Below are positions 6,786 to 38,131 of a stretch of DNA of 64,000 bases, piece by piece. Source of the stretch: Herbiconiux sp. SALV-R1 (lineage in GTDB: Bacteria; Actinomycetota; Actinomycetes; Actinomycetales; Microbacteriaceae); NCBI RefSeq assembly GCF_013113715.1, contig NZ_CP053344.1, positions 2,232,001 to 2,296,000 on the forward strand, written 5' to 3'. The translations under genes and the position numbers were made by a program. The notes beneath the pieces were generated by a model, which saw nothing but the letters and a program-made list of their open reading frames with translations, ran no database searches and had not been told where the DNA came from. Every line of letters starts with the position of its first letter. Position 1 is the first letter of the stretch.

Positions 6786-6799
6786 CTTTCGAACCGGCT

Positions 6800-7003
6800 T
6801 TAGACGTCGGCGACCTTACGGCCCTTGTACTCCAGGAAGAGCGGGGTGCCGGCGGAGTCTTCGACGACCTTCGCGCGGTGGGGAAGGCTGTAGGTGGTCT
6901 TGCCGTTCTCGACGGTCTTGACGAGGGTGGGGACCTCGGCCTTCCACTGCGAGCGACGCGCGTGGGTGTTGGAACGTGACTTCTTCCGCTTCGGAACAGC
7001 CAT
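6800..7003 (-). CDS. rpmF: 50S ribosomal protein L32
   Basis: A 67-residue ribosomal protein. The start [20 protein letters not shown] is the L32 signature. There are no CxxC zinc motifs, so this is the zinc-independent form common in actinobacteria. It sits between yceD and rnc, its usual place. Confidence 0.96.
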
Positions 7004-7066
7004 GACTATCTCTCTTCTCTTCTGTCGTGCTGCGCGCGGCGCAACACGGCGGTTTCGACACCCGGG

Positions 7067-8641: not shown

Positions 8642-8662
8642 CTCTGCGATTGATCTACAGAA
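8642..8662. promoter_or_regulatory. LysR-type T-N11-A box
   Basis: On the minus strand TTCTG and CAGAG flank 11 bases, an imperfect dyad of the T-N11-A type bound by LysR regulators. It lies 29-49 bp upstream of the lysR start and ~95 bp upstream of the divergent small gene, fitting autoregulation and control of the neighbour. Confidence 0.5.
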
Positions 8663-8756
8663 CGGATGCTGCCACCGTGAGCCTTACCGACCAGCACCAC
8701 CGCACCGCCGGCCCACCCCCGCCGGAACGCCCTCGACCGTCATGAAAGGAACCCCG

Positions 8757-8963
8757 ATGATCACCGTACTCGTCCTCCTCGGCGCACTCGCCGCATCCGG
8801 AATTGCCGCCACCGTCGTCGCGGTGGCCCGTGACGGCCACCACAGGGTCACGACTCGGGGCACCGGACGGGCCGAGGGCTGGGCGCACGCCGCGTGGGCG
8901 GGCACCCAGCCCCTCCCCGACTACGGAGCGGGCGACGCGAGCGAGGCGAAGGCCTCGTCGTAG
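8757..8963 (+). CDS. small single-pass membrane protein
   Basis: A 68-residue protein with one N-terminal hydrophobic helix (ITVLVLLGALAASGIAATVV) followed by RDGHHRV and a polar tail. The ATG at 8757 is preceded by AAAGGA at good spacing; an ATG 15 nt upstream is less likely. The last 43 nt overlap the 3' end of the convergent transaminase gene. Function unknown; its position opposite the LysR gene suggests that regulator controls it. Confidence 0.7.
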   Translation: MITVLVLLGALAASGIAATVVAVARDGHHRVTTRGTGRAEGWAHAAWAGTQPLPDYGAGDASEAKASS

Positions 8964-10258
8964 ATCGCCAGCGCCCGATCGACCTCGGCATCGGTGACGA
9001 TGCAGGGCGGCACGACGTGCAGGCGGTTGTCGGCGAAGAACGGCAGCAGCCCGCGCTCGAGCAGCGCCGCCTTGAGCGCCCCGACGACGGATGCGGGAGC
9101 CGGCTCGCGGGTCTCCCGATCGGTCACCAGGTCGAGCGCCCAGAACACGCCGAGCCCGCGCACCTCGCCGATCAGCTCGTACTTCTCGGCGAGCGCCGCG
9201 AGCCCGGGTGCGAGCTTGTCGCGCCCGATGCGCTCGGCGTTCGCGACGATGCCCTCCGACTCCATGGCGTCGATCGTGCCGACGATCGCCGCCATGGCGA
9301 GCGGGTGCCCCGAGTAGGTGAGGCCGCCGGGGAACACGGCGTCGTCGAACTGCTCGGCGATGGCCGGCGAGATGATGACCCCGCCGGCGGGCACATAGCC
9401 CGAGTTCACTCCCTTCGCGAAGGTGATGAGATCGGGCTGCACCACGACACCGTCTTCGGCGAGCGACTGGAAGGCGAACCAACCGCCGGTGCGGCCGAAC
9501 CCGGCCATCACCTCGTCGAAGATGAGCACGATACCGTACTCGTCGGCGAGCTCGCGCACGCCGGCGAGGTAGCCGGGCGGGGGCACGATGACGCCCGCGG
9601 TTCCGGGGATGGTCTCCAGCAGGATGGCGGCGATCGACGCGGGCCCCTCCGCCTGGATGACCCGGCGCAGGTGGTGCAGCGCGCGCTCGCTCTCCTGTTC
9701 GGGGCTCTCCGACCAGAACTCCGAGCGGTAGGAGAACGGCCCGAAGAAGTGCACGTGCCCGCGGGAGTACTCGTTCGGCACCCGCCGCCAGTCACCCGTC
9801 GCCACGACCGCCGCACCCGTGTTGCCGTGGTAGGAGCGGTAGGTCGAGAGCACCTTGTCGCGGCCGGTGTGCAGCCGCGCCATGCGGATGGCGTTCTCGT
9901 TCGCGTCGGCTCCACCGTTGGTGAAGAACACCTTCGAGAAGGAGCTTCCCGCCTTCTCGAGGATCTTCTGCGCAGCCTTGCCCCGAGTGAGGTTCGCGTG
10001 AGCGGGCGCCACCGTCGTGAGCACGTCGGCCTGCTCCTTGATCGCGGCGACGACCGCCGGATGCTGGTGCCCGATGTTGGTGTTCACGAGCTGCGAGGAG
10101 AAGTCGAGGTACTCGTTTCCCTCGAAGTCCCACACGGTCGAGCCGAGACCTCCCGCGATCACCATCGGGTTCAGCGCACCCTGCGCCGACCACGAATGGA
10201 ACACGTGCGCCCGATCCAGCTCCCGGGTGAGCTGCTGGTCGTTGGAGTCCGTGGACAT
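8921..10258 (-). CDS. class III aminotransferase, probable beta-alanine (omega-amino acid) transaminase
   Basis: A 445-residue fold-type I class III PLP aminotransferase. Features are the N-terminal HVFHSWSAQG, the phosphate-binding turn FFTNGGADANENAIRMAR, the LIFDEVMAGFGRTG block with the PLP aspartate, and FAKGVNSGYVPAGGV carrying the Schiff-base lysine. It is closest in pattern to taurine- and beta-alanine-pyruvate aminotransferases. It is the last gene of the operon that begins with a beta-ureidopropionase-like nitrilase, so the likely job is to deaminate beta-alanine or 3-aminoisobutyrate, the end product of reductive pyrimidine breakdown. It is 4 bp from the binding protein gene. The substrate is inferred from context. 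Confidence 0.85.
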   Translation of the reverse strand: MSTDSNDQQLTRELDRAHVFHSWSAQGALNPMVIAGGLGSTVWDFEGNEYLDFSSQLVNTNIGHQHPAVVAAIKEQADVLTTVAPAHANLTRGKAAQKILEKAGSSFSKVFFTNGGADANENAIRMARLHTGRDKVLSTYRSYHGNTGAAVVATGDWRRVPNEYSRGHVHFFGPFSYRSEFWSESPEQESERALHHLRRVIQAEGPASIAAILLETIPGTAGVIVPPPGYLAGVRELADEYGIVLIFDEVMAGFGRTGGWFAFQSLAEDGVVVQPDLITFAKGVNSGYVPAGGVIISPAIAEQFDDAVFPGGLTYSGHPLAMAAIVGTIDAMESEGIVANAERIGRDKLAPGLAALAEKYELIGEVRGLGVFWALDLVTDRETREPAPASVVGALKAALLERGLLPFFADNRLHVVPPCIVTDAEVDRALAIYDEAFASLASPAP

Positions 10259-10262
10259 GGTG

Positions 10263-11417
10263 CTAGTTCCCGCCTTCCTTCAGCTCCACCGTGATCGGCT
10301 CGAAGTCGGCTCCCATGACGTCGACCCCCTCGTCCTTCAGCTCCGCGAGCGCCTTCTCGACGTACTCGTTGCTGTAGGCGGTCGCCGGCGGCTCGGAGGT
10401 GATGACCGTGGCTCCGGTCTCGTTCGGGGTGTCCATCGCGATCTTCACGGTCTGGTCCCACTGGTCCTGGTTGATCGTGCCGACGCCCGAGGTGCTCGGC
10501 CAGATCAGCTTGTTGACCTCGTTGGTCATCCAGAGCTGGTGGCTCTCACCGAGCTGCGAGCCGGAGTCGGTGACGATCGCCGCGGCCTCGGCCGCGTTGT
10601 CGCGGGCGTAGGCCCAGCCCTTGATGGACGCCTTGATGAACTTCACCGCCGTGTCGGCGTAGTCGGCGTCGTCGGCGAGACGGTCGCTGTCGGCCCAGAT
10701 GGCGTCTTGCAGCATCGCCGTGCCCTCGGTGTTCCAGTCGATGACGTTGAGCTCGTCGGGCTGGTAGAGCTCGCCGGTGGCCGGGTTCACGGTCTCGAGA
10801 ACCTGGGCGTACTCGTTGTAGGTCATCGCCTGGGCGGCCTGGATGTCGCCGGCGAGGAAGCCGCTCATGTCGAAGGCCTGCTGCACCAGGGAGATGTCGC
10901 CGAGGGCGACCCCCGCCTTGTCCATGCCGGCGAACAGCTCCCACTCGTTGCCGTACCCCCAGCTGCCGACGGTCTTACCCTTGAGGTCGGCCGCGGTGGT
11001 GATGTCCTCGTCCTTGAACGAGATCTGGGTGGTGCCGGAGCGCTCGAAGATCTGGGCGATGTCGGTGACCGCGGCGCCCTGCTCGATCGAACCGAGCACC
11101 TTCGGCACCCACGAGATGGCGAAGTCGGCGTCTCCGCCCGTGAGCACGTCGATCGGAACGATGTCGGCGGCACCCTCGAGGATGGTGACGTCGAGGCCCT
11201 CGTCTTCGTAGTAGCCCTGCTCGAGCGCGGCGTAGTAGCCGGCGAACTGGGCCTGCGAGTACCACTGCAGCTGCAGCGAGACGGGGGTGAGCTCGCCGGC
11301 GTCGCCGTCGGCGGCGCCGGTCGACGTGCCCGAGCCGCCGCTCGAGCAGCCCGCGAGTGCGAGGGCGGTGACGGCGAGGGCGCCGACCCCTGAGATGAGA
11401 CGGGTGCTGTGTTTCAT
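10263..11417 (-). CDS. ABC transporter substrate-binding lipoprotein, NMT1/THI5-like
   Basis: A 384-residue secreted lipoprotein with an N-terminal signal ending in the lipobox LALAGC. The mature part has the NMT1/THI5-like pattern: QLQWYSQAQFAGYYAALEQG, then EDEGLDVTILEGAAD and GDADFAISWVPKVL. Relatives bind pyrimidines (thiamine precursors), riboflavin, sulfonates or nitriles. The ATG at 11417 follows an AGGAGGAG ribosome binding site. With the two permeases and the ATPase it forms one importer, and the linked dihydropyrimidinase suggests a pyrimidine base, dihydropyrimidine or hydantoin as ligand. Confidence 0.88.
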   Translation of the reverse strand: MKHSTRLISGVGALAVTALALAGCSSGGSGTSTGAADGDAGELTPVSLQLQWYSQAQFAGYYAALEQGYYEDEGLDVTILEGAADIVPIDVLTGGDADFAISWVPKVLGSIEQGAAVTDIAQIFERSGTTQISFKDEDITTAADLKGKTVGSWGYGNEWELFAGMDKAGVALGDISLVQQAFDMSGFLAGDIQAAQAMTYNEYAQVLETVNPATGELYQPDELNVIDWNTEGTAMLQDAIWADSDRLADDADYADTAVKFIKASIKGWAYARDNAAEAAAIVTDSGSQLGESHQLWMTNEVNKLIWPSTSGVGTINQDQWDQTVKIAMDTPNETGATVITSEPPATAYSNEYVEKALAELKDEGVDVMGADFEPITVELKEGGN

Positions 11418-11455
11418 GTGCTCCTCCTTGTGTGCTGCGTCGGGTGGTGCGTGGT

Positions 11456-12229
11456 CTAGGTGGTGGGGCTGTAGTGCCGGGTGGCGAACTTCTCGACCGC
11501 GAGGGTGACGCAGTAGAAGACGAGCCCCACGAGAATGGCGCCGAGCACGTAGGCCCAGGCCAGGTTGTAGTTCGACGAGGCGGCCGCCGAGGTGATCGAC
11601 TTGCCGAGACCGCCCACCGGCCCGCCGAAGTACTCGGCGATGAGGGCCGAGATCACGGCGAGGCTCGAGGCGATGCGGAGCCCCGTGAAGATGAACGGCA
11701 GCGCGCCGGGGACGGTCACCGTGCGGGTCATCTGCCACGAGGAGGCGGCGTACACCCGCATGAGGTCGCGGTGCACGGGCCGCACCTGGCGGAGGCCGCG
11801 CAGCGTGTTGATGTAGACGGGGATGAACACGGCGATGGCCGCCACCAGCTGCCGGGCCGTCTCCGCACCAGCGCCGAACATGTTGTAGAGCACGGGGGCC
11901 AGCGCGACGATGGGCACCACCGCGACCGCCGAGACGATCGCGGCGCTCAGCTCGTCGACTGCCCGCACGAGCGCGGCCAGCACGGCGAACAGGATGCCCG
12001 CCACGCCCCCCACGATGAGCCCGACGAGGGCGTTGCCTCCCGTGACGAAGGCGCCCTGGGCCACCGTGGCGATGTTCTCGCCGAACTCCGCGCCGATGGC
12101 GACGGGGCCCGGCACGATGAACGGCTTGATGTCGAAGGCGACGACGATGAGCTGCCACAGCGTCAGCGCGACGATGCCGAGCACCACCGGTGCCAGCACC
12201 GTGCGGAACGGCTGCGCGTCGGCCCTCAT
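11456..12229 (-). CDS. ABC transporter permease (SsuC/ThiX type), first of two
   Basis: A 257-residue inner-membrane permease with about six transmembrane segments and the EAA-type cytoplasmic loop around RVYAASSWQMTRTVTVPGALP (near residue 160). It belongs to the SsuC/TauC/ThiX group that works with NMT1-like binding proteins. Its ATG overlaps the stop of the ATPase gene by 4 nt (ATGA). It probably forms a heterodimer with the second permease at 13107. Confidence 0.9.
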   Translation of the reverse strand: MRADAQPFRTVLAPVVLGIVALTLWQLIVVAFDIKPFIVPGPVAIGAEFGENIATVAQGAFVTGGNALVGLIVGGVAGILFAVLAALVRAVDELSAAIVSAVAVVPIVALAPVLYNMFGAGAETARQLVAAIAVFIPVYINTLRGLRQVRPVHRDLMRVYAASSWQMTRTVTVPGALPFIFTGLRIASSLAVISALIAEYFGGPVGGLGKSITSAAASSNYNLAWAYVLGAILVGLVFYCVTLAVEKFATRHYSPTT

Positions 12230-13110
12230 CGGTTCTCAACCCCCTTGATGCCCACCGGGGTCTCCCCGTGCAGCAGCTCGCGCACCTTGCTCACGTTCTC
12301 GAAGAAGCCCTCGTTCTCGCGCAGCTCGTCGCCGCGCTCCCCCGCCGAGCCGAGCGACACGGTGAGGATGTCACGGATGCGGCCCGGTCGCGGCGACATC
12401 ACCACGACGCGGTTCGACAAGAAGACCGCCTCGGGGATGGAGTGCGTGACGAACACCACCGCGGCGCCGGTCTCACCGCAGATGCGCACGAGCTCCGTCT
12501 GCATCCGTTCGCGCGTCATCTCGTCGAGGGCACCGAAGGGCTCGTCCATGAGCAGCAGCCGCGGGCTCTCGGCGAGCGCCCTGGCGATCGCCACGCGCTG
12601 CTGCATGCCACCGGAGAGCTGGTCGGGGTAGCTCTCGGCGAAGTCGGAGAGGCCGACCAGCGACAGGAGCTCCGCCGAACGGGACTTGCGGGCCGCCGAG
12701 GAGACCCCGTGCAGCTCGAGCGGCAGCTCGATGTTGCCGGTGACGGTGCGCCAGGGCAGCAGACCCGCCTGCTGGAAGGCGATGCCGTACTCCTGATCGA
12801 TGCGCGCCTGCCGTGCCGTCTTGCCGAACACCTCGACGGTACCGGTCGACGGGGTGTCGAGGTCGGCGATCAGGCGCAGCAGGGTCGACTTGCCACAGCC
12901 CGAGGGGCCGATGAGCGAGACGAACTCGCCGGGCGCGACGGTGAGGTCGACGTTCTGCAGGGCGGTGACGCTCGGCTTCGACTTCTTCTTCGGCACGAAC
13001 ACCTTGTCGACGCCGACGACCTTCACGGCGGGAACGGATGCGGCCGCGGGAACGGCGGCGGCAGGCGCAGGCGCGGCTGCGGGAACGGATGCGGGGGTGG
13101 CGTCGCTCAT
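12226..13110 (-). CDS. ABC transporter ATP-binding protein (SsuB/ThiZ type)
   Basis: A 294-residue nucleotide-binding subunit. Visible motifs are Walker A GPSGCGKST, the Q-loop around IAFQQAGLLPW, signature LSGGMQQRVAIARAL, Walker B LLLMDEPFGALDE and the switch histidine in VFVTHSIPEA. The first ~30 residues are a low-complexity Ala/Pro stretch. The start overlaps the upstream permease stop (ATGA) and its own stop overlaps the next permease, so all three are translationally coupled. Confidence 0.95.
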   Translation of the reverse strand: MSDATPASVPAAAPAPAAAVPAAASVPAVKVVGVDKVFVPKKKSKPSVTALQNVDLTVAPGEFVSLIGPSGCGKSTLLRLIADLDTPSTGTVEVFGKTARQARIDQEYGIAFQQAGLLPWRTVTGNIELPLELHGVSSAARKSRSAELLSLVGLSDFAESYPDQLSGGMQQRVAIARALAESPRLLLMDEPFGALDEMTRERMQTELVRICGETGAAVVFVTHSIPEAVFLSNRVVVMSPRPGRIRDILTVSLGSAGERGDELRENEGFFENVSKVRELLHGETPVGIKGVENR

Positions 13111-13967
13111 GCGGGCACTTCTCCTCGACGGTAGCGGCGGAGCAGCACTCCGAGCAGGGCGATGAAACCGGCGGCCACGAGGCCCACGGCGATGGCGCCG
13201 AAGATCGGCGCCCAGGTCTTGGCGGGGTCGCCCGAGGCCTGTTGGGCGAACTCGATGATCATGCGTCCGATACCACCACGCAGGCCGATCGAGACCTCGG
13301 CGACGACGGTGCCGATCACGGCGTTCGCGGCGGCCAAGCGGAGAGCCGGCAGGAGGTACGGCACGCTCGCCGGGAAGCGCAGCGTGACGAGGGTGCGCCA
13401 CCATCCGATGCCGTAGCTGCGGAACAGCTCGACGTGGATGCGGTCGGGCGAGTTGAGCCCGCGGAGCGCACCGATCGACACCGGGAAGAACGCGAGGTAG
13501 CTCGCGATCACCGCCACCGACATCCAGTTCTCCCAGGTGAAGTCGCCGAACTGCAGCTGGGCGCCCCACCGTCGCACCAAGGGCGCGATGGCGATGAGCG
13601 GCACGGTCTGGCTGAGGATGATCCACGGCAGCACCGCCGACTCCGCGGTGCGGAACCGCTGCATGAGCACGGCGAGCAGCAGGCCGACGACCACGCCGAC
13701 GATCCAGCCGACCGCGGCGACCCCGAGGGTGAACACGGCGGCCTGACCGACCGCGAGCCAGACCGGCAGGGCGTTGCGGCCGTTGCCACTCGTCTCGAAC
13801 AGCCTCGCCACCATGTCCCAGACGTGGGGCATGGCGAGATCGGTGGTGCGGGGAAGGATCGTGAGGTCGCCGACCATCACGCCGGTGGCCGGGCCGAGCG
13901 CCTTGTACAGCTCCCAGACGACGACGAGCAGGAGGATGCCGCCCGCGCCGAGAAGGACCTTACACAT
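13107..13967 (-). CDS. ABC transporter permease (SsuC/ThiX type), second
   Basis: A 286-residue permease with about six membrane segments and the coupling-loop signature ELFRSYGIGWWRTLVTLRFP near residue 190. Compared with the first permease it carries a longer periplasmic segment after helix 1 (residues ~30-75). It starts 7 bp after the LLM flavoenzyme gene ends. Two different permeases are less common than one homodimeric permease in this transporter group. Confidence 0.9.
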   Translation of the reverse strand: MCKVLLGAGGILLLVVVWELYKALGPATGVMVGDLTILPRTTDLAMPHVWDMVARLFETSGNGRNALPVWLAVGQAAVFTLGVAAVGWIVGVVVGLLLAVLMQRFRTAESAVLPWIILSQTVPLIAIAPLVRRWGAQLQFGDFTWENWMSVAVIASYLAFFPVSIGALRGLNSPDRIHVELFRSYGIGWWRTLVTLRFPASVPYLLPALRLAAANAVIGTVVAEVSIGLRGGIGRMIIEFAQQASGDPAKTWAPIFGAIAVGLVAAGFIALLGVLLRRYRRGEVPA

Positions 13968-13974
13968 CCGGCCC

Positions 13975-14991
13975 TCAGGCCTTCGCGGTGATGTGGTCGC
14001 GGAGCGCGGGCATCACGGTCTCGCCGTACACGCGGAGGGTCTCCTCCTTGTTGTCGTGCTGCAGGTACCCGGCGAACTGGGTGCAGCCGATCTCGCGGAA
14101 CTGCTCGAGCTTCTCGATGTGGTCCTTCGCGGTGCCGAGCACGCAGAACCGGTCGACGATCTCGTCGGGCACGAAGGCGGCGTGCGTGTTGCCGGCCTGA
14201 CCGTGCTGGTTGTAGTCGTAGCCTTCGCGGCCTGCGATGTAGTCGGTGAGGGCCTGCGGCACCGCACCATCCGTGCCGTACTTCGCGACGATGTCGGCGA
14301 CGTGGTTGCCCACCATGCCGCCGAACCAGCGGCACTGGTCGCGCATGTGCTCCCAGTCGTCGCCGATGTACATGGGTGCCGCGATGCAGAACTTGATGGC
14401 CATCGGGTCGCGGCCCGCGTTCGAGGCCGCCGTGCGCACGGTCTCGATCATCCACTTCGCGATGTCGACGTCGCCGCACTGCAGGATGAAGCCGTCGCCG
14501 ACCTCGCCCGTGAGCTTGAGCGCGAGCGGGCCGTAGGCGGCCACCCACATCTCGAGCTCGGAGCCGTGGCTCCACGGGAACTGCAGCGTCGCACCCTTGT
14601 ACTCGACGGCACGGCTCGACGCCAGCTCACGGATGACGTGGATCGACTCGCGCAGCGCCTTGAGCGTCGTGGGCGCCCCGTTGGTGACGCGCACCGCCGA
14701 GTCGCCGCGGCCGATGCCGCACACCGTGCGGTTGCCGTACATCTCGTTGAGAGTGGCGTAGACGGATGCGGTGACGGTCCAGTCGCGGGTCGCCGGGTTG
14801 GTGACCATCGGGCCGACCTTGATCTTGTGCGTCTCGGCCAGGATCTGGCTGTAGATGACGTAGGGCTCCTGCCAGAGCAGGTGCGAGTCGAAGGTCCAGA
14901 AGTAGTCGAAGCCGTACTGCTCGGAGAGCTTCGCCAGGCCGACGGTGCGGGCGGCGGGAGGGTTGGTCTGAACGACCGCGCCGAAATCCAT
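13975..14991 (-). CDS. LLM-class (TIGR03842-like) flavin/F420-dependent oxidoreductase in pyrimidine operon
   Basis: A 338-residue TIM-barrel enzyme of the luciferase-like monooxygenase superfamily, resembling the TIGR03842 (CPS_4043) putative F420-dependent group. It starts MDFGAVVQTNPPA and contains YFWTFDSHLLWQEPYV, KVGPMVTNPATRDW, NRTVCGIGRGDSAVR and a C-terminal EQFREIGCTQFAGYL strand. Its cofactor (FMN or F420) and reaction are not known. It sits between the dihydropyrimidinase and the importer in a tight operon, where a classical pathway would need dihydropyrimidine dehydrogenase. A role in reducing or oxidising the pyrimidine ring is therefore likely. It differs from RutA in context: no RutB-F homologues are present and a dihydropyrimidinase is. 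Confidence 0.85.
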   Translation of the reverse strand: MDFGAVVQTNPPAARTVGLAKLSEQYGFDYFWTFDSHLLWQEPYVIYSQILAETHKIKVGPMVTNPATRDWTVTASVYATLNEMYGNRTVCGIGRGDSAVRVTNGAPTTLKALRESIHVIRELASSRAVEYKGATLQFPWSHGSELEMWVAAYGPLALKLTGEVGDGFILQCGDVDIAKWMIETVRTAASNAGRDPMAIKFCIAAPMYIGDDWEHMRDQCRWFGGMVGNHVADIVAKYGTDGAVPQALTDYIAGREGYDYNQHGQAGNTHAAFVPDEIVDRFCVLGTAKDHIEKLEQFREIGCTQFAGYLQHDNKEETLRVYGETVMPALRDHITAKA

Positions 14992-15018
14992 GGTGGTTCC
15001 TGTCTGTGGGAGTTCGGG

Positions 15019-16455
15019 TCAGATGAGGTATTGGCTGAGGCCGCGCTTGAAGTACGCGCCGTCGCCCTTGCGTCCGAGGTAGCTGTTGTCGTCGACGATC
15101 TTGCGGCCGCGGGAGAACACGGTGTCGACGTGGCCGTCGATCTCGAACCCCTCCCAGGCGGAGTAGTCCATGTTCATGTGGTGGGTCTTCTCCAGGCCGA
15201 TGGATGTGTGGCCGTTCGGGTCGTAGATCACGACGTCGGCGTCGGCCCCGGGCTGGATGACGCCCTTCTTGCCGTAGATGCCGAACATCCGTGCCGGGGT
15301 GGTGCTCGTGAGCTCGACCCAGCGCGGCAGTGAGATCTCCCCCATCACGACGCCCTGGTAGATGAGGTCCATGCGGTGCTCGACCGAGCCGATGCCGTTC
15401 GGGATCTTGGCGAAGTTGCCGAGCCCCATGTCCTTCTGGCCCTTCATGCAGAACGGGCAGTGGTCGGTCGAGATGACCTGCAGGTCGTTGGTGCGGAGCC
15501 CCTGCCACATGTGGTGCTGGTGACCCTCGTGCTTCGAGCGCAGCGGGGTGGAGCACACCCACTTCGCACCCTCGAAGTCGCCCCACTTCTCGCTCGAGGC
15601 GCCGAGCTGGTCTTCGAGCGAGAGGTAGAGGTACTGCGGGCAGGTCTCGGCGAACACGTTCTGGCCGTTGTCGCGGGCCGCGGCGATCTGCTCGACCGCC
15701 TGCTTCGCGCTCACGTGCACGATGTACAGGGGCGCCCCGGTGAGGTTGGCGAGCATGATGGCGCGGTGCGTGGCCTCCTCCTCGGCCTGCCAGGGGCGCG
15801 AGACGCCGTGGTAGTAGGGCGAGGTCTCGCCGCGCTTGAGGTGCTGCTGCACGAGCAGATCGATGACCGAGCCGTTCTCGGCGTGCATCATGATGAGCGA
15901 TCCGTTGTCGGAGGCGCGCTGCATCGCCTTCACGATCTGGCCGTCGTCGCTGAGGAACACGCCCTTGTAGGCCATGAAGAGCTTGAAGCTCGTGACGCCC
16001 TCGTTGATCAGCTCGTCCATGGCGGTGAGTGACGAGTCCTGCACGTCGGAGAGGATCTGGTGGAAGCCGTAGTCGACCGCGCACTGGCCGGCCGCCTTCT
16101 CGTGCCAGAGGTGGTACTGGTCGAGGATGTTCTCGCCCGCGTACTGCACGACGAAGTCGATGATCGACGTGGTGCCGCCGTGCGCGGCAGCCCGGGTGCC
16201 GGTCTCGAAGGTGTCGCTGGCCTCGGTGCCGCCGAAGGGCATCTGCATGTGCGTGTGCGCGTCGATGCCGCCGGGGATGACGTACTTGCCGGTGGCGTCG
16301 ACCACCTCGTCGACGTTGTTCTTCACGTCGAAGCCGAGCAGCGTCGAGCCGGGTGCGAGAACCGCGGCGATGGTGTCGCCGTCGAGCAGAACGTCGGCCT
16401 GGGCGGTGCCCGTCGCGTTCACGACGGTGCCACCGGTGATGAGGGTCTTGGTCAT
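15019..16455 (-). CDS. dihydropyrimidinase / D-hydantoinase
   Basis: A 478-residue cyclic amidohydrolase that opens dihydropyrimidine or hydantoin rings to N-carbamoyl amino acids. The binuclear metal site is complete: GGIDAHTHMQMP (His67, His69), the carboxylated lysine Lys158 in SFKLFMAYKG, further histidines in MMHAENG and IVHVSAK, and the aspartate in STDHCPF. The ATG at 16455 has GGAG seven bases upstream; the in-frame ATG at 16533 lies inside the nitrilase gene. It is the second gene of the operon after the ureidopropionase-like nitrilase. Uracil/thymine-derived substrates are most likely; hydantoins are possible. Confidence 0.93.
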   Translation of the reverse strand: MTKTLITGGTVVNATGTAQADVLLDGDTIAAVLAPGSTLLGFDVKNNVDEVVDATGKYVIPGGIDAHTHMQMPFGGTEASDTFETGTRAAAHGGTTSIIDFVVQYAGENILDQYHLWHEKAAGQCAVDYGFHQILSDVQDSSLTAMDELINEGVTSFKLFMAYKGVFLSDDGQIVKAMQRASDNGSLIMMHAENGSVIDLLVQQHLKRGETSPYYHGVSRPWQAEEEATHRAIMLANLTGAPLYIVHVSAKQAVEQIAAARDNGQNVFAETCPQYLYLSLEDQLGASSEKWGDFEGAKWVCSTPLRSKHEGHQHHMWQGLRTNDLQVISTDHCPFCMKGQKDMGLGNFAKIPNGIGSVEHRMDLIYQGVVMGEISLPRWVELTSTTPARMFGIYGKKGVIQPGADADVVIYDPNGHTSIGLEKTHHMNMDYSAWEGFEIDGHVDTVFSRGRKIVDDNSYLGRKGDGAYFKRGLSQYLI

Positions 16456-16475
16456 GATCAGCTCCGTTGCTGGGG

Positions 16476-17324
16476 TCAGGGTTTCGGGATGCTCGTGTAC
16501 GACTCCGGGCGGCGATCGCGGTAGAACTGCCAATCGTCTCGTACCGCCCGGATCATGTCGAGGTCGAGGTCGCGGATGACCACCTCCTCGGCATCGCCGG
16601 AGGCGTAGCCGCCCACGATGTTGCCCTGCGGGTCGGCGAACTGGCTCGTGCCGTAGAAGGTGACGGCGAGGTCGCCGTACTCGTTGTCCTCACGGCCCAC
16701 CCGGTTGGGGGCGGCGACGAAGTAGCCGTTGGCCGCGGCCGCCGCGGGCTGCTCGAGCTCCCAGAGGCGGTTCGACAGTCCCGGCTTCGTGGCGTTGGGG
16801 TTGAACACTATTTCGGCGCCGTTCAAGCCGAGTTCGCGCCAGCCCTCGGGGAAGTGGCGGTCATAGCAGATGTAGACGCCGATGCGGCCCACGGCCGTGT
16901 CGAACACCGGGTAGCCCATGTTGCCGGGGCGGAAGTAGAACTTCTCCCAGAAGCGGTCGACGTGCGGGATGTGGTGCTTGCGGTACTTTCCGAGGATGGT
17001 GCCGTCGGCATCCACCACGACCGCCGTGTTGTAGTAGATGCCCGGCTGGTCCTCCTCGTAGATGGGGAGCACCATCACGAGGTTCAGCTCCTTCGCCAGG
17101 GCCGCGAAGCGCTGCACGATGGGGCCGTCGGCGGCCTCGGCGTAGGCGTAGTACTTCTTGTCCTGCGTGATGCCGAAGTAGGGGCCGTAGAACAGCTCCT
17201 GGAAGCAGATGACCTGGGCGCCGTCGGCAGCCGCGTCACGGGCGAACTGCTCGTGCTTGGCGATCATCGATTCCTTGTCGCCTGTCCAGCTGGCCTGGGT
17301 GATCGCCGCGCGTACCGTTGTCAT
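16476..17324 (-). CDS. nitrilase-superfamily amidohydrolase, probable beta-ureidopropionase
   Basis: A 282-residue carbon-nitrogen hydrolase with the Glu-Lys-Cys triad: Glu43 in CFQELFYGPYF, Lys116 in GKYRKHHIP and Cys153 in YICYDRHFPEGW. The RKHHIPHVDRFWEKFYF segment is typical of N-carbamoyl-beta-alanine and N-carbamylputrescine amidohydrolases. Next to a dihydropyrimidinase, release of beta-alanine, CO2 and ammonia from N-carbamoyl-beta-alanine is the best guess. The ATG at 17324 follows GGAAGGA; an upstream in-frame ATG at 17366 lacks a ribosome binding site. It is the promoter-proximal gene of the eight-gene operon. Confidence 0.9.
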   Translation of the reverse strand: MTTVRAAITQASWTGDKESMIAKHEQFARDAAADGAQVICFQELFYGPYFGITQDKKYYAYAEAADGPIVQRFAALAKELNLVMVLPIYEEDQPGIYYNTAVVVDADGTILGKYRKHHIPHVDRFWEKFYFRPGNMGYPVFDTAVGRIGVYICYDRHFPEGWRELGLNGAEIVFNPNATKPGLSNRLWELEQPAAAAANGYFVAAPNRVGREDNEYGDLAVTFYGTSQFADPQGNIVGGYASGDAEEVVIRDLDLDMIRAVRDDWQFYRDRRPESYTSIPKP

Positions 17325-17394
17325 CGAGCATCCTTCCGGTCTTTTGTTATTATTCGGCTTGAACATTTCTCGTGTGTTTCACCATGTGACGCAG

Positions 17395-17420
17395 GCGTAA
17401 ATATGTCAAGAGTTGTCAAG
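17395..17420. promoter_or_regulatory. MocR promoter and direct-repeat operator
   Basis: Between the divergent operon and the MocR gene, two direct copies of TGTCAAG lie at 17404-17410 and 17414-17420, one helical turn apart. On the minus strand each reads CTTGACA. A -10-like TAAATA lies at 17397-17402 on the plus strand. MocR/GntR regulators often bind direct repeats in such spaces, so this is the likely operator for both directions. Confidence 0.5.
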
Positions 17421-17461
17421 CAGTCGTCCATGCGCTAACGGATCCACGGAATCGGGGCCGG

Positions 17462-18799
17462 ATGCTCGTCCAGATCGTCGACGCAGTCGAACACCGCACG
17501 CCCGACGGCATCGCCGCCGCCATCTCGCGTCTCATCCGCTCGGGTGCACTCGCCGCCGGGGAGCGCCTGCCCACCGTGCGGGTCGTGGCGAGCGAGCTCG
17601 GGGTGAGCCCTGCGACCGTCAGCAACGCCTGGCAGGCCCTCGCCGGCGTGGGTCTCATCACCTCGCGCGGCCGGGCCGGCAGCTTCGTGCTGCAGGCCTC
17701 GACGGCTTGGATGCCGCCGCACTTCGGCGAGCTCGCCGGGTCGCACGTGGAGGCCAGGCTCGACCTCTCCACCGGCACCCCCGACCCCGAGCTGCTGCCC
17801 GACCTCAGCGCGGCCTTCCGCTCCCTGCCCACCAGGGCCGACACGGCGAGCTACCTGAGCTCACCCGTGCTGCCGGAGTTGGAACGCCACCTGCGCGCAT
17901 CCTGGCCCTACCCGGTTCCCGCCCTCACCATCGTCGACGGGGCGCTCGACGCCGTGTCGCGGGCGCTCGAGAGCATCGTGCGGTTCGGCGACCGGGTCGT
18001 GGTGGAGAACCCGGGCTTCCCGCCGTTCCTCGACCTGCTCGAGCACTTCGGGGTGGAGCGGGTGCCCGTCGACATCGACGCGGAAGGCATGCGACCCGAC
18101 CGTCTCGCGGCGGCGCTGGCGTCGCATCCGGTCGCGATCATCCTGCAGCCGCGTGCCCACAACCCCACCGGCATCTCCATGACCGAGGGGCGCATGCGCG
18201 AGATCGCGCGGGTGCTGCGCAGTCACTCGCACCTCGGCGACCCGGTCGTGATCGAAGACGACCACTCCGGGGAGATTTCCAGCGCACCGGCGTTCAGCGT
18301 CGGCAACTGGCTGCCCCAGCGCACGCTGCACGTGCGGAGCTTCGCGAAATCGCACGGGCCCGACCTCCGCATCGCGGCGCTCGGCGCGCCCGACCAGCTG
18401 CTCGACCGCATCGTGGCACGACGGATGCTCGGGCCGGGGTGGACGTCACGGATGCTGCAGACCATCCTCTACGAACTGCTCACCGCGAGCCCGTCGCTCA
18501 CCACGGTGCACGACGCGCGACGCATCTACCAGGCGAGGCAGCGGCGGCTCTCGGAGGCGCTGGTACGGCACGGCATCGAGCACTCCCCCTCCGACGGCAT
18601 CAACACCTGGGTGCCTGTGGCCGACGAGAAGGCGGCGACGGTGGCGTTGGCGGCCGGGGGCATCAGGGTGGCGGCGGGGTCGACGTTCTCGTCGTCGTTC
18701 GCGCCCGAGCCCGAGCAGCACGTGCGAGTGACGGCCGGGAACGTGCGCGACGACTTCGACCGCATCGCGGGGCTGCTGGCGGGGGCGGCGCGGGCCTGA
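17462..18799 (+). CDS. MocR-family (GntR-aminotransferase) transcriptional regulator
   Basis: A 445-residue PLP-dependent regulator. Residues 1-75 are a GntR winged helix (GERLPTVRVVASELGVSPATVSNAW); the rest is an aminotransferase-like domain with RAHNPTGISM near residue 231 and the PLP lysine Lys296 in RSFAKSHGPDL. MocR proteins sense amino compounds through PLP, for example GABA, taurine or beta-alanine-like ligands. It diverges from the pyrimidine operon, whose final product would be beta-alanine, so beta-alanine or a pathway intermediate is a plausible effector. The ATG lacks a strong ribosome binding site. Confidence 0.92.
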   Translation: MLVQIVDAVEHRTPDGIAAAISRLIRSGALAAGERLPTVRVVASELGVSPATVSNAWQALAGVGLITSRGRAGSFVLQASTAWMPPHFGELAGSHVEARLDLSTGTPDPELLPDLSAAFRSLPTRADTASYLSSPVLPELERHLRASWPYPVPALTIVDGALDAVSRALESIVRFGDRVVVENPGFPPFLDLLEHFGVERVPVDIDAEGMRPDRLAAALASHPVAIILQPRAHNPTGISMTEGRMREIARVLRSHSHLGDPVVIEDDHSGEISSAPAFSVGNWLPQRTLHVRSFAKSHGPDLRIAALGAPDQLLDRIVARRMLGPGWTSRMLQTILYELLTASPSLTTVHDARRIYQARQRRLSEALVRHGIEHSPSDGINTWVPVADEKAATVALAAGGIRVAAGSTFSSSFAPEPEQHVRVTAGNVRDDFDRIAGLLAGAARA

Positions 18800-21129: not shown

Positions 21130-22131
21130 ATGAATGCCGTGAAGGTGACGGTTCTCGCGGGCGGTGTCGGGGGTGCGAAGTTCCTCAAAGGGCTGCGCAC
21201 CGAGCTGCGGAGGCGCTACCCGAACGGTGACGGCGGGTCGACCGCCGAGATCACCGCGGTCGTGAACACGGGCGACGACATGTGGCTGACGGGGCTGCGG
21301 GTGTGCCCCGACCTCGACTCGATCATGTACGCCCTGGGCGGCGGCAACGACGAGGTGCGCGGCTGGGGCCGCGCCGACGAGACCGAGCGGGTGGCCGCCG
21401 AGCTCACCGCCTACGGCATCGGCTGGCCCTGGTTCACGCTCGGCGACCTCGACCTCGGCACGCACATCGCACGGTCGAGCTTCCTCCGCGACGGACTCAC
21501 CCTCACCGAGGCCACCGCCCGCCTCTGCGAGCGCTGGAACCCCGGCGTGAGGCTGCTGCCGATGAGCGATCAGCCGGTCGAGACGCACGTCGACATCCTG
21601 GTCGACGGCAAGCGGCGCATCGTGCACTTCGAGGAGTGGTGGGTGAAGTACCGGGCGACGGTGCCGGCGCAGCGCTTCATCCAGGTGGGGGTCGACCAGG
21701 CGAAGCCGACGCCGCAGGTGCTGCGGGCGATCGAGCACGCCGACGTGGTGCTCGTCGCCCCGTCGAACCCGGTGGTGTCGATCGGCACGATTCTGGGGGT
21801 GCCCGGGATGCGCGAGGCACTCCGCGGGGCACGCGCACCCATCGTGGGTGTGTCGCCCATCATCTCGGGGGCCGCCGTGCGCGGCATGGCCGACGCGTGC
21901 CTCACGGCGATCGGCGTCGAGACCACCGCGGCCGCCGTGGCGAAGCACTACGGTGCGCGCAGCCGGGGAGGACTCCTCGACGGCTGGCTCGTCGATACGA
22001 GCGACGCGACGGTCGTGCCCGTGCTCGAGGGGTCGGGCATCCGGGCGCGCGCGGTACCACTGTGGCTGACGGATGCCGACACCAGCGCCGCGCTCGCGGG
22101 GGACGCGCTCGACGCAGCTCGCGCACGCTGA
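21130..22131 (+). CDS. cofD: 2-phospho-L-lactate (or PEP-linked) transferase, CofD/FbiA
   Basis: A 333-residue member of the CofD/FbiA family, which moves the phospho-lactyl or phospho-enolpyruvyl group from the guanosine-activated donor made by CofC onto Fo during coenzyme F420 synthesis. Signatures are VTVLAGGVGGAKFLKGL at the start, VVNTGDDMWLTGLRVCPDLDSI near residue 48, LPMSDQPVETHV near residue 150 and VLVAPSNPVVSIGTIL near residue 215. Mycobacteria keep fbiA next to fbiB; here cofE is 15 kb away, but all F420 genes lie in this window. Confidence 0.95.
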   Translation: MNAVKVTVLAGGVGGAKFLKGLRTELRRRYPNGDGGSTAEITAVVNTGDDMWLTGLRVCPDLDSIMYALGGGNDEVRGWGRADETERVAAELTAYGIGWPWFTLGDLDLGTHIARSSFLRDGLTLTEATARLCERWNPGVRLLPMSDQPVETHVDILVDGKRRIVHFEEWWVKYRATVPAQRFIQVGVDQAKPTPQVLRAIEHADVVLVAPSNPVVSIGTILGVPGMREALRGARAPIVGVSPIISGAAVRGMADACLTAIGVETTAAAVAKHYGARSRGGLLDGWLVDTSDATVVPVLEGSGIRARAVPLWLTDADTSAALAGDALDAARAR

Positions 22132-24675: not shown

Positions 24676-24883
24676 GTGGGATCCCCTTTTGTCGTGTTGT
24701 GTCCATGGTCACACAGAGCATCCCTCAGCGCTCCGGAGGAAGCCGCCCCAATGCAGGGGGTAGGCTCGGTGCATTCTGTGTACGGGCCTGGCTTTGGGCT
24801 CATCTCTCGTCGTTCCCTCTCGACCGCTTTCTCAGTTCCGCACGAGTCTCCTCACGGGTCACCGCCCGAGTCCCCTCGCGCGC

Positions 24884-24920
24884 GAGCCCACCGAGACCCA
24901 CCGAGACCCACCGAGATCCG
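24884..24920. repeat. short direct repeats in the fbiC leader
   Basis: CCCACCGAGA occurs three times in a row at 11-bp period just upstream of the fbiC ribosome binding site. It may be slippage; an effect on translation is possible but unsupported. Confidence 0.6.
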
Positions 24921-24931
24921 CGAGGTTCACC

Positions 24932-27574
24932 ATGCCGTCCGACCTTCCCGTCCCCACCCGCCGCCGCACCGAACCGCAGCCCGTGGTGCAGAGCTTCATC
25001 CCGAACGCCTCCGCCATCCGCCGGGCGCTGAAACGCGCCGACGAGGGTGTCGCCCTCAACGCCACCGAGGCCGAGACCCTGCTGCACGCCCGCGGCGACG
25101 ACCTCGACCGCCTCCTCACCGCCGCGAGTCGCGTGCGCGACGCCGGGCTCGAGGCCGCCGGCCGGCCCGGCGTCATCACCTACTCGCGCAAGGTGTTCAT
25201 CCCGCTCACCCACCTCTGTCGCGACCGCTGCCACTACTGCACCTTCGTCGAGACCCCCGGCGGGCTCTCGAAGCAGGGCAAGGCGCCCTACCTCTCCCCC
25301 GACGAGGTGCTCGAGGTCGCCCGCCAGGGCGCGGCGCTCGGCTGCAAGGAAGCGCTGTTCACCCTCGGTGACCGGCCCGAAGACCGTTGGCCCGCCGCCC
25401 GGGAGTGGCTGGATGCGCACGGCTACGACTCCACCATCGCCTACCTCCGCGCGATGGCGATCCGGGTGCTCGAGGAGACCGGGCTCCTCCCCCACCTCAA
25501 CCCGGGCGTGATGACGTGGGAGGAGATTCAGCGCCTCAAGCCCGTCGCCCCGTCGATGGGCATGATGCTCGAGACCACGGCCACGAGGCTGTGGAGCGAA
25601 AAGGGCAACGCCCACTACGGCTCCCCCGACAAAGACCCGGCGCTGCGCCTGCGGGTGATCGAGGACGCCGGCCGGTCGAACGTTCCGTTCACCACGGGCC
25701 TGCTGCTCGGCATCGGCGAGAACTACGAGGAGCGCGTCGACGGCCTGTTCGCGCTGCGCTCCGCCGCCCGCCGGCACGGGCACGTCCAGGAGGTGATCGT
25801 GCAGAACTTCCGGGCGAAGCCAGCCACCGCCATGATGGGCGCCGACGACCTCGAGACCCAGGAGTACGTCGCCGCGGTCGCGGTCGCGCGGCTCGTGCTC
25901 GGGCCGAAGGCGCGCCTGCAGGCCCCGCCGAATCTGACGGATGCGCGTGAACTGTCGCTGCTCATCCGCGCCGGTATCGACGACTGGGGCGGTGTCTCGC
26001 CCCTCACGCCCGACCACGTGAACCCCGAGCGGCCGTGGCCGCACATCGACGACCTCGCCCGCCTCACGGCGGAGTCGGGCTTCACGCTGCGCGAGCGCCT
26101 CACCGCGCACCCGCACTACGTGCGCGCGGAGGAGCCGTGGCTCGACCCGCGCGTCATCCCGCACGTGCGCGCCCTCGCCGACGCCGACGGGCTCGCCGTC
26201 GAGGGCCGGGTGCCGAGCGGTCTGCCGTGGCAGGAGCCGGAGTGGGGGTCGTCGTCGGGCCGCACCGAGCTGCACACCGAGATCGACACCGTCGGCCGCA
26301 CCGGAGACCGGCGCAGCGACTTCGACGACGTGTACGGCGACTGGTCGGAGCTGCGCGAGCAGGTCGGGGCGAACCCCGGCAACCGCACCCGAGCATCCGG
26401 CGACCCCGCCGTGCGCGCCGCGCTCGCGCGTGCTGCGGAGAACCCCGCGGGGCTGGCCGACGCCGACTACCTCACGCTGCTCGGAGCCGACGGCCCCGAC
26501 CTCGACGCGCTGGCCGCCGTCGCCGACGAGGTGCGCCGAGCCACCGTGGGCGACGAGGTGGGCTACGTGGTGAACCGCAACATCAACTTCACCAACGTCT
26601 GCTACACCGGCTGCCGCTTCTGCGCCTTCGCACAGCGGCGCAATGACGCGGATGCGTACACGCTGTCGATGCAGCAGGTGGGCGACCGCGTCGACGAGGC
26701 CTGGTCGATCGGGGCGACCGAGATCTGCATGCAGGGCGGCATCCACCCCGACCTGCCCGGCACCGCGTACTTCGATCTGGCGCGCACGGTGAAGGAGCGG
26801 CAGCCCGACATCCACCTGCACGCCTTCTCGCCGATGGAGATCGTGAACGGGGCGGCTCGCACGGGGCTGTCGTTCCGTGACTTCCTGCTCGAGGCTCGAC
26901 ACGCCGGGCTCGACACGATTCCGGGAACGGCCGCCGAGATCCTCGACGACGACGTGCGCTGGGTGCTCACGAAGGGCAAGCTGCCGGCCGCGCAGTGGAT
27001 CGAGATCGTCACCACGGCGCACGAGGTCGGGCTGCGGTCGTCGTCGACGATGATGTACGGGCACGTCGACAACCCGACGCACTGGGTGGGGCACCTACGC
27101 ACGCTGTCGCGCATCCAGGACGAGACGGGCGGATTCACCGAGTTCGTGCTGCTGCCGTTCGTGCACATGAACTCGCCGGTTTACCTGGCAGGTGTCGCCC
27201 GGCCGGGCCCGACGCTGCAGGAGAACCGGGCCATCCACGCGGTGGCGCGGCTCATGCTGCACGGGCGCATCGACCACGTGCAGACCTCGTGGGTGAAGCT
27301 CAGCGACGCCGGCACCCAGCAGATGCTGCAGGGCGGGGCCGACGACCTCGGCGGAACCCTCATGGAGGAGACCATCAGCCGCATGGCGGGCGCCGACAAC
27401 GGCTCGGAGAAGACGGTCGACGACCTCGAGGCTGTCATCCGCGGCATCGGGCGCGTGCCGGTGCAGCGCACCACCACCTACGGGCGCCCCACCGCCGAGC
27501 GCGCCGCCGTCGCCCGCGAGTTCGCCTCCCGCGGCTTCGCCGCCACCGGCAAGAAGTTGCTCACGGTGCTGTAG
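24932..27574 (+). CDS. fbiC: Fo synthase, bifunctional radical SAM enzyme (FbiC = CofG-CofH)
   Basis: An 880-residue fusion of two radical SAM enzymes that build Fo, the deazaflavin chromophore of coenzyme F420, from tyrosine and a flavin pathway intermediate. The CofG-like half has CRDRCHYC (Cys96, 100, 103) and the CofH-like half CYTGCRFC (Cys557, 561, 564). Other blocks include [49 protein letters not shown] and [18 protein letters not shown] chose the ATG at 24932 because it has GAGG at good spacing and matches the family start; a frame extension to 24794 is Arg/Pro-rich and unlikely. It is monocistronic and followed by a long palindrome. Confidence 0.97.
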
Positions 27575-37270: not shown

Positions 37271-38131
37271 TCAGCCCCGCTCGCCCCGCGCCGCCGCCCG
37301 CCCCGCCGCGAGCCCCGCGGCCAACCCCGCCTCGTACCCCTCGGCGTACCCCGCCGCCCGCCCCTCCGCGAGCGCCTCGTCGGTGCCGAGCCTGAACATG
37401 TCGCCGGGCCCGGTGCGGGTGAGGGCGCGCGCCGGGGTGTCGAGCGACTCCACCACGGCGTGCGCGAGCCCGCGCACGACGGCCACGGGCATGCCGCTCG
37501 CCTTGCCCTTCACGAGGTCGCCGGCGGAGGCCAGCTCGTCGGCGATCGCCGCCTGCGTGACGACGAGCTGCTGCCCGAAACTGTCGCGCGATCCGCGGAG
37601 GTCGTCGAGCACGGCCACCCCCGCCGCCCCGATCGCCTGGTCGATCTGCCCCTGCCGCCACGGCCGCCCGAGCGTGTCGGAGACGATCACCCCGAGCAGC
37701 ACCCCGAACCGCTCCCGCAGCCCGCGGGCGAGCCGCGTCGCCGAGGCGTCGGGGTCGACCGGGAGCAGCAGGACCGTGCCCTCGGGCGTGTTCGACGCAT
37801 CCACCCCGGCCGCCGCCTGCACGATGCCCTGCCGGTTCTCGACGATGCGGGTCACACCCCCGGGGTGCGCCCGGGTGGCCACCACCCGCACGGTCTCGGC
37901 GGTGATGGCGTCTTCGCGGTCGGAGGCGGCGACGACGCGCCCCTCCGCCTTCGACACGATCTTGCTGGTGACCACGAAGACGTCTCCGTCGCGCGGCTCG
38001 AGCCCCGCTGCTACCGCGGCGTCGCCGATGAGCGCGACCAGGTCGTCGCCCGCCGAGATCTCGGGAATGCCCCCGAACGCCGCCACCCGCAGGCCCCACG
38101 CGGCCCGCCCCTCGGCCCCTCCCCCGCTCAC
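37271..38131 (-). CDS. cofE: coenzyme F420-0:L-glutamate ligase (CofE, N-terminal half of FbiB) with GxxxG-rich tail
   Basis: A 286-residue ligase that adds gamma-linked glutamate to F420-0 using GTP. Conserved blocks include [72 protein letters not shown]-like [19 protein letters not shown] and [17 protein letters not shown]. The last ~35 residues are an Ala/Gly repeat of the type AxGxAxGYxAG. Mycobacterial FbiB carries a C-terminal nitroreductase-like domain that reduces dehydro-F420-0; it is absent here. The GTG at 38131 overlaps the upstream LLM gene stop (GTGA), so the two are coupled. Confidence 0.92.

Follow-up and report, generated by a model that had tools for sequence, protein, structure and literature searches.

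The reductive pathway of pyrimidine catabolism (Pyd) begins with a ring reductase, PreT-PreA or PydA, and this first step is known in variant forms. Clostridium chromiireducens, for example, has a ferredoxin-dependent PydA according to the available sections of PMC7332683, and the accessible text of a study on Mycobacterium smegmatis describes an induced reductive uracil pathway, some genes of which are left unidentified there (PMC4617892). In 2025, an F420-dependent enzyme of the luciferase-like monooxygenase (LLM) type was proposed to act as yanthine reductase in Chloroflexota, replacing PydA-like enzymes (excerpts of PMC12507026). The sections at hand of a 2021 review on F420 state that no F420H2-dependent reductase had been experimentally studied in bacteria outside the Actinobacteria, and leave unanswered why Proteobacteria and Chloroflexi make F420 (PMC8498797). 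Here we consider a stretch of 64,000 nucleotides (nt) from the 4.52-Mb genome of Herbiconiux sp. SALV-R1 (contig NZ_CP053344.1, positions 2,232,001 to 2,296,000; the window hereafter, with positions counted from its first letter), which carries an operon where an LLM gene of family TIGR03842 adjoins a dihydropyrimidinase gene. From gene content, distribution and a structure model we consider it probable that the operon encodes reductive pyrimidine catabolism with PreT-PreA/PydA replaced by the LLM protein, acting as an F420H2-dependent uracil/thymine reductase.

An LLM gene beside dihydropyrimidinase

The operon comprises eight intact genes on the minus strand, running from 17366 down to 8921 and separated by at most 38 nt or overlapping by 4 nt. 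A nitrilase-type amidase with a CN_hydrolase domain (16476..17366), the proposed beta-ureidopropionase (PydC function), is followed after 20 nt by a PydB-type dihydropyrimidinase (15019..16455; TIGR02033, 544 bits, cut-off 393) and after another 27 nt by the LLM gene (13975..14991). The four parts of an ATP-binding cassette (ABC) importer come next: permease A (13107..13967, 7 nt from the LLM gene), an ATPase (12226..13110, ABC_tran) that overlaps each flanking permease by 4 nt, permease B (11456..12229; both permeases match BPD_transp_1) and, across a gap of 38 nt, an NMT1/THI5-type binding protein (10263..11417, NMT1 domain, ATG at 11417), which we propose binds pyrimidines. A class III aminotransferase (8921..10258, Aminotran_3), the proposed beta-alanine transaminase, closes the operon 4 nt further on; the ATG starts behind these spacings were checked. 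Divergent from the operon, with 95 nt between it and the nitrilase gene, a MocR-type regulator with GntR and aminotransferase domains starts at 17462 on the plus strand (17462..18799). The original prediction, made from the letters alone, had described this arrangement and assigned these roles; the eight genes and the MocR gene are intact where it had placed them, the spacing is as tight as described, and profile matches return the same protein families.

The pairing of LLM and dihydropyrimidinase is conserved among relatives. In a set of Micrococcales loci of about 20 kb each, the best 80 of 537 relatives from a scan of GTDB species genomes, all 80 have dihydropyrimidinase as the immediate upstream neighbour of the LLM gene, in the same orientation, which makes the pairing more than chance; the spacing has a median of 27 nt, is at most 150 nt in 78 loci and reaches 837 nt at its maximum. 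Nitrilase is present in 77 loci, the remaining three (L060, L071, L072) being contig starts near dihydropyrimidinase, and above-threshold matches to the aminotransferase occur in 65 loci, those to the importer genes in 61-64. PreA, PreT and RutA reach the tblastn score threshold in none of the 80. A similar picture emerges from 25 diverse LLM loci, hand-picked from the 53 LLM-positive genomes of the phylum set described below (a 26th region covers the dihydropyrimidinase of G044, which lies separately): dihydropyrimidinase occurs in 21, an amidase of either the nitrilase or the M20 Zn-hydrolase type in 24, a class III transaminase in 15 and the binding protein in 12, and no fetched stretch holds PreA.

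The phylum set consists of 246 Actinomycetota genomes, with presence defined as a score above the curated family cut-off. TIGR03842 is present in 53 of these genomes and dihydropyrimidinase (TIGR02033) in 75, the latter in 52 of the 53 LLM-positive versus 23 of the 193 LLM-negative genomes (Fisher p 7e-34 without relatedness correction; the genomes share kinship, so that Fisher values here and below are overstated). Both genes lie on one contig, no more than 12.1 kb apart, in 43 of the 53, counting G200, where the nearby LLM gene is a second, partial copy; the other ten have them on separate contigs (seven) or far apart (two), or lack dihydropyrimidinase (one). PreA exceeds its cut-off in two of the 246 genomes and in none of the 53 with the LLM gene, in a profile search at E<=1e-60 that weaker PydA relatives could escape. 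G196, where dihydropyrimidinase, Zn-hydrolase, PreA and PreT are adjacent, has no TIGR03842 LLM.

The Herbiconiux genome itself has no match to the PreA model NF006183 at E<=1e-60, in line with the earlier claim that the ring reductases are missing. A DHO_dh search of the same genome returned PyrD, one protein resembling dihydroorotate dehydrogenase (DHODH), which scores 112 bits against the PreA model (cut-off 335), and one sub-threshold match. The DHODH-like protein is encoded at C1:3354625-3355299 (L002), where the neighbouring genes resemble, by eye, an aldolase and a zinc alcohol dehydrogenase. In a separate case, L162 (G083; 6107-7456 and 8644-9552), dihydropyrimidinase stands beside a distant LLM that scores 104 bits to TIGR03842, below the cut-off; this is perhaps a second LLM clade paired with the dihydropyrimidinase step.

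The Rhodobacterales provide a direct swap. For Proteobacteria the evidence consists of plasmid records only, most of its weight lying on ten plasmids from two Leisingera species; two of these plasmids were read for gene order, and the remaining eight are known only from their matches to the LLM gene and to dihydropyrimidinase (hydA). The two plasmids carry a cofG-H-D-C-E-npdG-LLM operon followed by a TetR regulator, which has RutR as a solved relative and, in the one case compared, matches E. coli RutR with 42% identity across 179 residues. On the other side of the module lie PntA, PntB, a class III transaminase (742 bits to the AptA model, cut-off 500), a Zn-hydrolase, hydA and a nucleobase:cation symporter-1 (NCS1) family symporter. 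The cof-npdG-LLM run recurs in Paracoccus alcaliphilus, where an NMT1-type ABC importer comes after it. A plasmid of Qingshengfaniella, a genus of the same order as Leisingera, instead carries PreT-PreA-TetR-Zn-hydrolase-hydA and then an ABC importer whose ATPase and binding protein are 52% and 38% identical to those in the window. Among the best 60 of 78 hydA records, 49 are at least 54% identical to Leisingera hydA; among the matches listed, 36 of these plasmid records have PreA, ten (all Leisingera) have the LLM gene and three have neither, where a record with neither may be among the two left over when 60 of 62 PreA records are counted. LLM and PreA occur together in none of the 49, a comparison of plasmids that left out the Leisingera chromosomes. 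Elsewhere, Caballeronia sp. SBC2 combines PreA with a truncated LLM stretch on a different replicon, a plasmid (L124, 10001-10387) where Zn-hydrolase and transhydrogenase genes adjoin the stretch.

Together, the co-occurrence with dihydropyrimidinase, the lack of PreA in all 53 LLM-positive genomes and the swap on Rhodobacterales plasmids support the placement of the LLM enzyme in the slot of the ring reductase, as first suggested from the window. The support for replacement is comparative and drawn from two phyla, and replacement is still a prediction. One might alternatively imagine that the LLM protein works at the other end of the pathway, after the transaminase, as an F420H2-dependent malonate semialdehyde reductase (or 3-hydroxypropionate dehydrogenase), with dihydropyrimidines coming from outside or from another reductase. 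The F420-dependent LLM enzymes on record do include alcohol and sugar dehydrogenases, which act on carbonyl/alcohol pairs, and the transaminase is frequent in the 80 operon loci. We regard this scenario as quite unlikely, however: the tightest partner of the LLM gene is dihydropyrimidinase, eight of the 21 diverse loci with both genes show no class III transaminase in the fetched stretch (some of them at contig ends), what the LLM gene is exchanged for in Rhodobacterales is PreT-PreA rather than an aldehyde reductase, and all 53 LLM-positive genomes would be left without PreA.

The LLM protein and its surroundings

The LLM protein matches TIGR03842 (F420_CPS_4043), a hypothetical equivalog in NCBIfam, with 573 bits (cut-off 295; residues 2-330 against model positions 1-329), and is 96% identical to its counterpart in a metagenome-assembled Herbiconiux genome. 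The solved sequences closest to it are those of the F420-dependent methylene-tetrahydromethanopterin reductase Mer (E 3.5e-33), followed by other F420 enzymes and one alkanal monooxygenase. An AlphaFold2 model built from 38 aligned sequences has a mean predicted local distance difference test score (pLDDT) of 90.3 and shows the TIM barrel of luciferase-like proteins. In a fold search with this model, ranks 1-13 are taken by Mer, the F420-dependent glucose-6-phosphate dehydrogenase (FGD) FGD2 or F420-dependent alcohol dehydrogenase, with luciferase at rank 14; the top matches are Mer structures, some with F420 bound, at 20-27% identity over the full length.

Could the protein then be Mer itself? 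This was rejected: its score to the Mer model TIGR03555 stays below the cut-off (133.6 versus 348.7 bits), and the catalytic residue of Mer, Glu6 according to the text available of PMC11094777, is replaced by V, T or C in every one of the 25 TIGR03842 representatives. These share the GPxVTNPxxR segment with Mer and carry an insertion of their own, RxxYDYxxHG, that Mer lacks. Judged by sequence and model, the enzyme is built on the plan of F420-dependent LLM proteins yet distinct from Mer, since Mer is nearest in sequence and fold and GPxVTNPxxR is kept but Glu6 is not. Eight residues are invariant in TIGR03842 (W222, N229, H230, R255, Y258, D259, Y260 and H263), and we would guess that the catalytic acid or substrate-binding residues are among them.

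Another member of the LLM superfamily, RutA, is annotated as pyrimidine monooxygenase and uses O2 and reduced flavin to open the uracil ring, so that a RutA-like oxygenase has to be considered as well. We rejected it as extremely improbable: the protein has no match to the RutA model TIGR03612 at E<=0.001, no RutA- or RutG-like gene scores above threshold in the 80 Micrococcales loci, and oxidative ring opening needs no dihydropyrimidinase, which is the near-constant partner here. The Herbiconiux genome does hold RutA-like genes elsewhere: an LLM gene at C1:3367851-3368888 (L157/L160) shares 44% identity with RutA of E. coli and scores 387 bits to the RutA model, below the cut-off of 498; another gene (34%) lies beside a RutB-like gene (30%) at C1:1288.8-1290.4 kb (L161).

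F420 genes are close at hand. As the original prediction had noted, the window contains genes for F420 biosynthesis, and CofD, FbiC and CofE all exceed their cut-offs: CofD/FbiA at 21130..22131 on the plus strand (TIGR01819, 355 bits, cut-off 257), FbiC, a CofG-CofH fusion, at 24794..27574 on the plus strand (NF006687, 1481 bits over residues 65-908, cut-off 1018; the true start is probably further inside this open reading frame) and CofE, the F420-0:glutamate ligase, with a matched stretch at 37391..38086 on the minus strand (TIGR01916, 231 bits, cut-off 181). A possible source of F420H2, an LLM gene of the F420-dependent glucose-6-phosphate dehydrogenase family, follows at 38128..39129 on the minus strand (TIGR03557, 266 bits, cut-off 210); it scores higher, though below the cut-off, to the FMN (flavin mononucleotide)-dependent model TIGR03885 (293 of 399) and reaches 208 of 420 to the FGD equivalog. 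A guanine deaminase gene sits at 23275-24675, between the pyrimidine operon and fbiC, so that genes for nucleobase catabolism and F420 synthesis are interleaved in the window.

The link between the LLM gene and F420 synthesis extends beyond Herbiconiux. FbiA, FbiC, cofE or an FGD-family gene lies within 52 of the 80 Micrococcales loci (tblastn, score thresholds set by us). Across the phylum set cofD is above cut-off in 132 of 246 genomes, with 49 of the 53 LLM-positive against 83 of the 193 LLM-negative genomes (Fisher p 2e-11). Within the order of Herbiconiux, where 50 of 198 genomes have the LLM gene, cofD is found in 45 of these 50 and in 34 of the 148 others, and in genus g3 of its own family cofD is present in 4 of 4 LLM-positive and 1 of 5 LLM-negative genomes. 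In G174 of the phylum set cofD occurs only in pieces with an internal stop, yet cofH is above cut-off. A co-occurrence survey of this kind had been proposed from the window at the outset; among the 53 LLM-positive genomes it returns dihydropyrimidinase in 52, PreA (E<=1e-60) in none and cofD in 49.

Substrate, pathway and points of conflict

If the LLM protein is a ring reductase, which ring does it reduce? The solved relatives of the dihydropyrimidinase are D-hydantoinase/dihydropyrimidinase structures. Those of the nitrilase are led by Drosophila CG3027, which we take to be a beta-ureidopropionase, N-carbamoylputrescine amidohydrolase and beta-ureidopropionase at 177-186 bits, with the best D-carbamoylase at about 106; its best NCBIfam match, TIGR03381 (N-carbamoylputrescine amidohydrolase), remains below cut-off (254 of 410 bits). 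The Leisingera Zn-hydrolase is near both N-carbamoyl-L-amino-acid hydrolase and N-carbamoyl-beta-alanine amidohydrolase (642 and 633 bits, respectively), and the M20 Zn-hydrolases of actinobacterial LLM loci are only 31-35% identical to it. Because two unrelated amidase families, both of which include beta-ureidopropionases, occupy the same slot, N-carbamoyl-beta-alanine is favoured as the intermediate. The binding protein has 4nmy, the formylaminopyrimidine-binding protein 3ix1 and THI5-type enzymes as solved relatives, and the aminotransferase is closest to taurine:2-oxoglutarate aminotransferase 6jix. At locus L185 (G393) a nitrilase, the LLM gene, a RutG/uracil-type permease (RutG model, 348 bits, cut-off 759) and npdG (221 bits, cut-off 150) lie in a row. 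Taking amidase types, binding-protein relatives and the RutG-type permease context together, uracil and thymine appear to be the likeliest substrates.

Alternatively, the enzyme might reduce a different cyclic ureide or pyrimidine, such as a hydantoin-like compound, a modified uracil or a purine-derived ring, uracil not being the main substrate. Dihydropyrimidinases and hydantoinases are close in sequence, the Leisingera NCS1 symporter has the hydantoin transporter Mhp1 as its nearest solved relative, and there is the precedent of the putative F420-dependent LLM yanthine reductase of Chloroflexota (available part of PMC12507026). Against this stand the neighbouring amidases, near N-carbamoyl-beta-alanine hydrolases, the RutR-like regulator in Leisingera, the RutG-like permease in one locus and the occupation of the same slot elsewhere by PreA; overall we think this unlikely. 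A D-hydantoin route was rejected, the amidase being closer to beta-ureidopropionase than to D-carbamoylase. For the same reason a hydantoin-modifying step, offered in the original prediction as an alternative role for the LLM protein, has become the less likely option, with the proviso that N-carbamoylputrescine amidohydrolase is equally near.

Under the proposed F420H2-dependent uracil/thymine reduction, the pathway would run as follows. The NMT1-type importer would bring in uracil or thymine. Reduced F420 would be supplied in Herbiconiux by the LLM enzyme of the glucose-6-phosphate dehydrogenase type and in Leisingera from NADPH by NpdG; the grouping of PntAB, NpdG and the LLM gene in Leisingera is in keeping with a reductive direction. 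The LLM enzyme would then transfer a hydride from F420H2 to C6 of the ring while an enzyme acid protonates C5, yielding dihydrouracil. By homology, dihydropyrimidinase would open the ring of the dihydropyrimidine, the nitrilase-type amidase would release beta-alanine along with ammonia and CO2, and beta-alanine would become malonate semialdehyde through the class III transaminase.

A number of observations weigh against this explanation. Dihydropyrimidinase is not always where it should be: none is above cut-off in the LLM-positive genome G194, none was found in the 20 kb read around the LLM gene of L185, and none within the 31 kb read at the Paracoccus alcaliphilus cluster. Conversely, 23 dihydropyrimidinase-positive genomes have no TIGR03842 LLM, and PreA too is missing from 22 of them. 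A third route would exist there unless contig ends account for the gap; the 22 (of 246) include families f19 and f40, and contig ends lie beside the gene in G119 and G155. The RutA-like LLM and the DHODH-like protein of Herbiconiux could themselves be active on pyrimidines. For the Leisingera Zn-hydrolase, the top NCBIfam name is allantoate amidohydrolase. Plasmids of Mycetohabitans rhizoxinica, presumably the same species as Paraburkholderia rhizoxinica, carry PreA. Paraburkholderia rhizoxinica makes an F420 variant (sections at hand of PMC8498797), and hence not every proteobacterial F420 producer fits.

Further points concern the cofactor. NpdG is not above cut-off in the Herbiconiux genome (best 47 bits). 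Three LLM-positive genomes of the phylum set (G115, G224, G232) have no cofD, and the same holds, at E<=1e-60, for five of the 50 LLM-positive Micrococcales (G322, G329, G346, G370, G385), which are 99-100% complete and have no cofH above cut-off either. The LLM gene adjoins dihydropyrimidinase and nitrilase in each of the five (loci L177-L181). In G322 and G385 the fetched stretch shows neither a cofE-like nor an FGD-family gene; G329, G346 and G370 (L178, L179, L180) have both near the operon, in G370 with 225 bits to the CofE model (cut-off 181) and 281 to the F420-dependent glucose-6-phosphate dehydrogenase family (cut-off 210), although the latter gene again scores higher, below cut-off, to FMN-dependent TIGR03885 (312 of 399). 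Genomes without cofD may possibly take up F420 or a precursor, or use another cofactor. These five exceptions are the chief argument for a uracil reductase dependent on FMNH2 or NAD(P)H in place of F420. We nonetheless give that version a slim chance, given the cofGHDCE-npdG-LLM operon of Alphaproteobacteria, the F420 enzymes among the nearest structures and, in three of the five exceptions, the cofE-like and F420-glucose-6-phosphate-dehydrogenase-family genes beside the operon, which hint at uptake of F420 or its precursor. The original prediction had left the choice between F420 and FMN open; the cof-npdG-LLM operon, the Mer-like fold and the co-occurrence with cofD support F420 as the probable cofactor, against which stand the five Micrococcales genomes.

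Keeping these exceptions in mind, we also find it fairly likely, judging from sequence comparisons, that TIGR03842 constitutes a new, non-homologous class of F420H2-using uracil/thymine reductase, that it normally accompanies dihydropyrimidinase in those Actinomycetota that make F420, and that in Rhodobacterales it travels within a self-contained module encoding F420 synthesis and an NADPH:F420 reductase as well; uracil breakdown would then be one reason for these bacteria to make F420. If true, this would assign a cofactor and a substrate to TIGR03842, fill in the missing first step of many actinobacterial pyrimidine operons and add a non-homologous replacement of dihydropyrimidine dehydrogenase, a class that also inactivates 5-fluorouracil. 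With a cofGHDCE-npdG-LLM operon beside uracil-degradation genes, the role of proteobacterial F420 becomes directly testable.

Comparison with known systems

The original prediction held that the enzyme was undescribed, and our literature search, whose coverage mostly excluded bioRxiv and subscription journals, agrees in that it returned no report of an F420-dependent uracil reductase and no paper naming TIGR03842; the available part of PMC6279831 mentions neither TIGR03842 nor hydantoin. The closest described system is the Pyd pathway with PreT-PreA or PydA. The LLM forms share with it dihydropyrimidinase, an amidase of putative beta-ureidopropionase type, a class III transaminase and an importer with homology to the one in a PreA operon, and the alphaproteobacterial forms read also have a RutR-type regulator. 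The difference is that PreA/PydA is absent, its position being taken by an LLM protein from a different family close to F420 genes.

Each of the remaining comparisons captures a part of this arrangement. Mer supplies the closest solved sequences and folds and shares GPxVTNPxxR, whereas the TIGR03842 proteins have lost its Glu6, gained the RxxYDYxxHG insertion and are found in a bacterial pyrimidine gene context. The ferredoxin-dependent PydA of C. chromiireducens likewise represents a variant electron supply for the first Pyd step (available sections of PMC7332683), but the TIGR03842 LLM is not a PydA homologue. Finally, the putative yanthine reductase of Chloroflexota is also an F420-dependent LLM enzyme that would replace a PydA-like reductase in a reductive pathway for N-heterocycles; it belongs, as the excerpts of PMC12507026 have it, to a uric acid pathway in a different phylum, and the likeness lies in what is proposed for the two enzymes.

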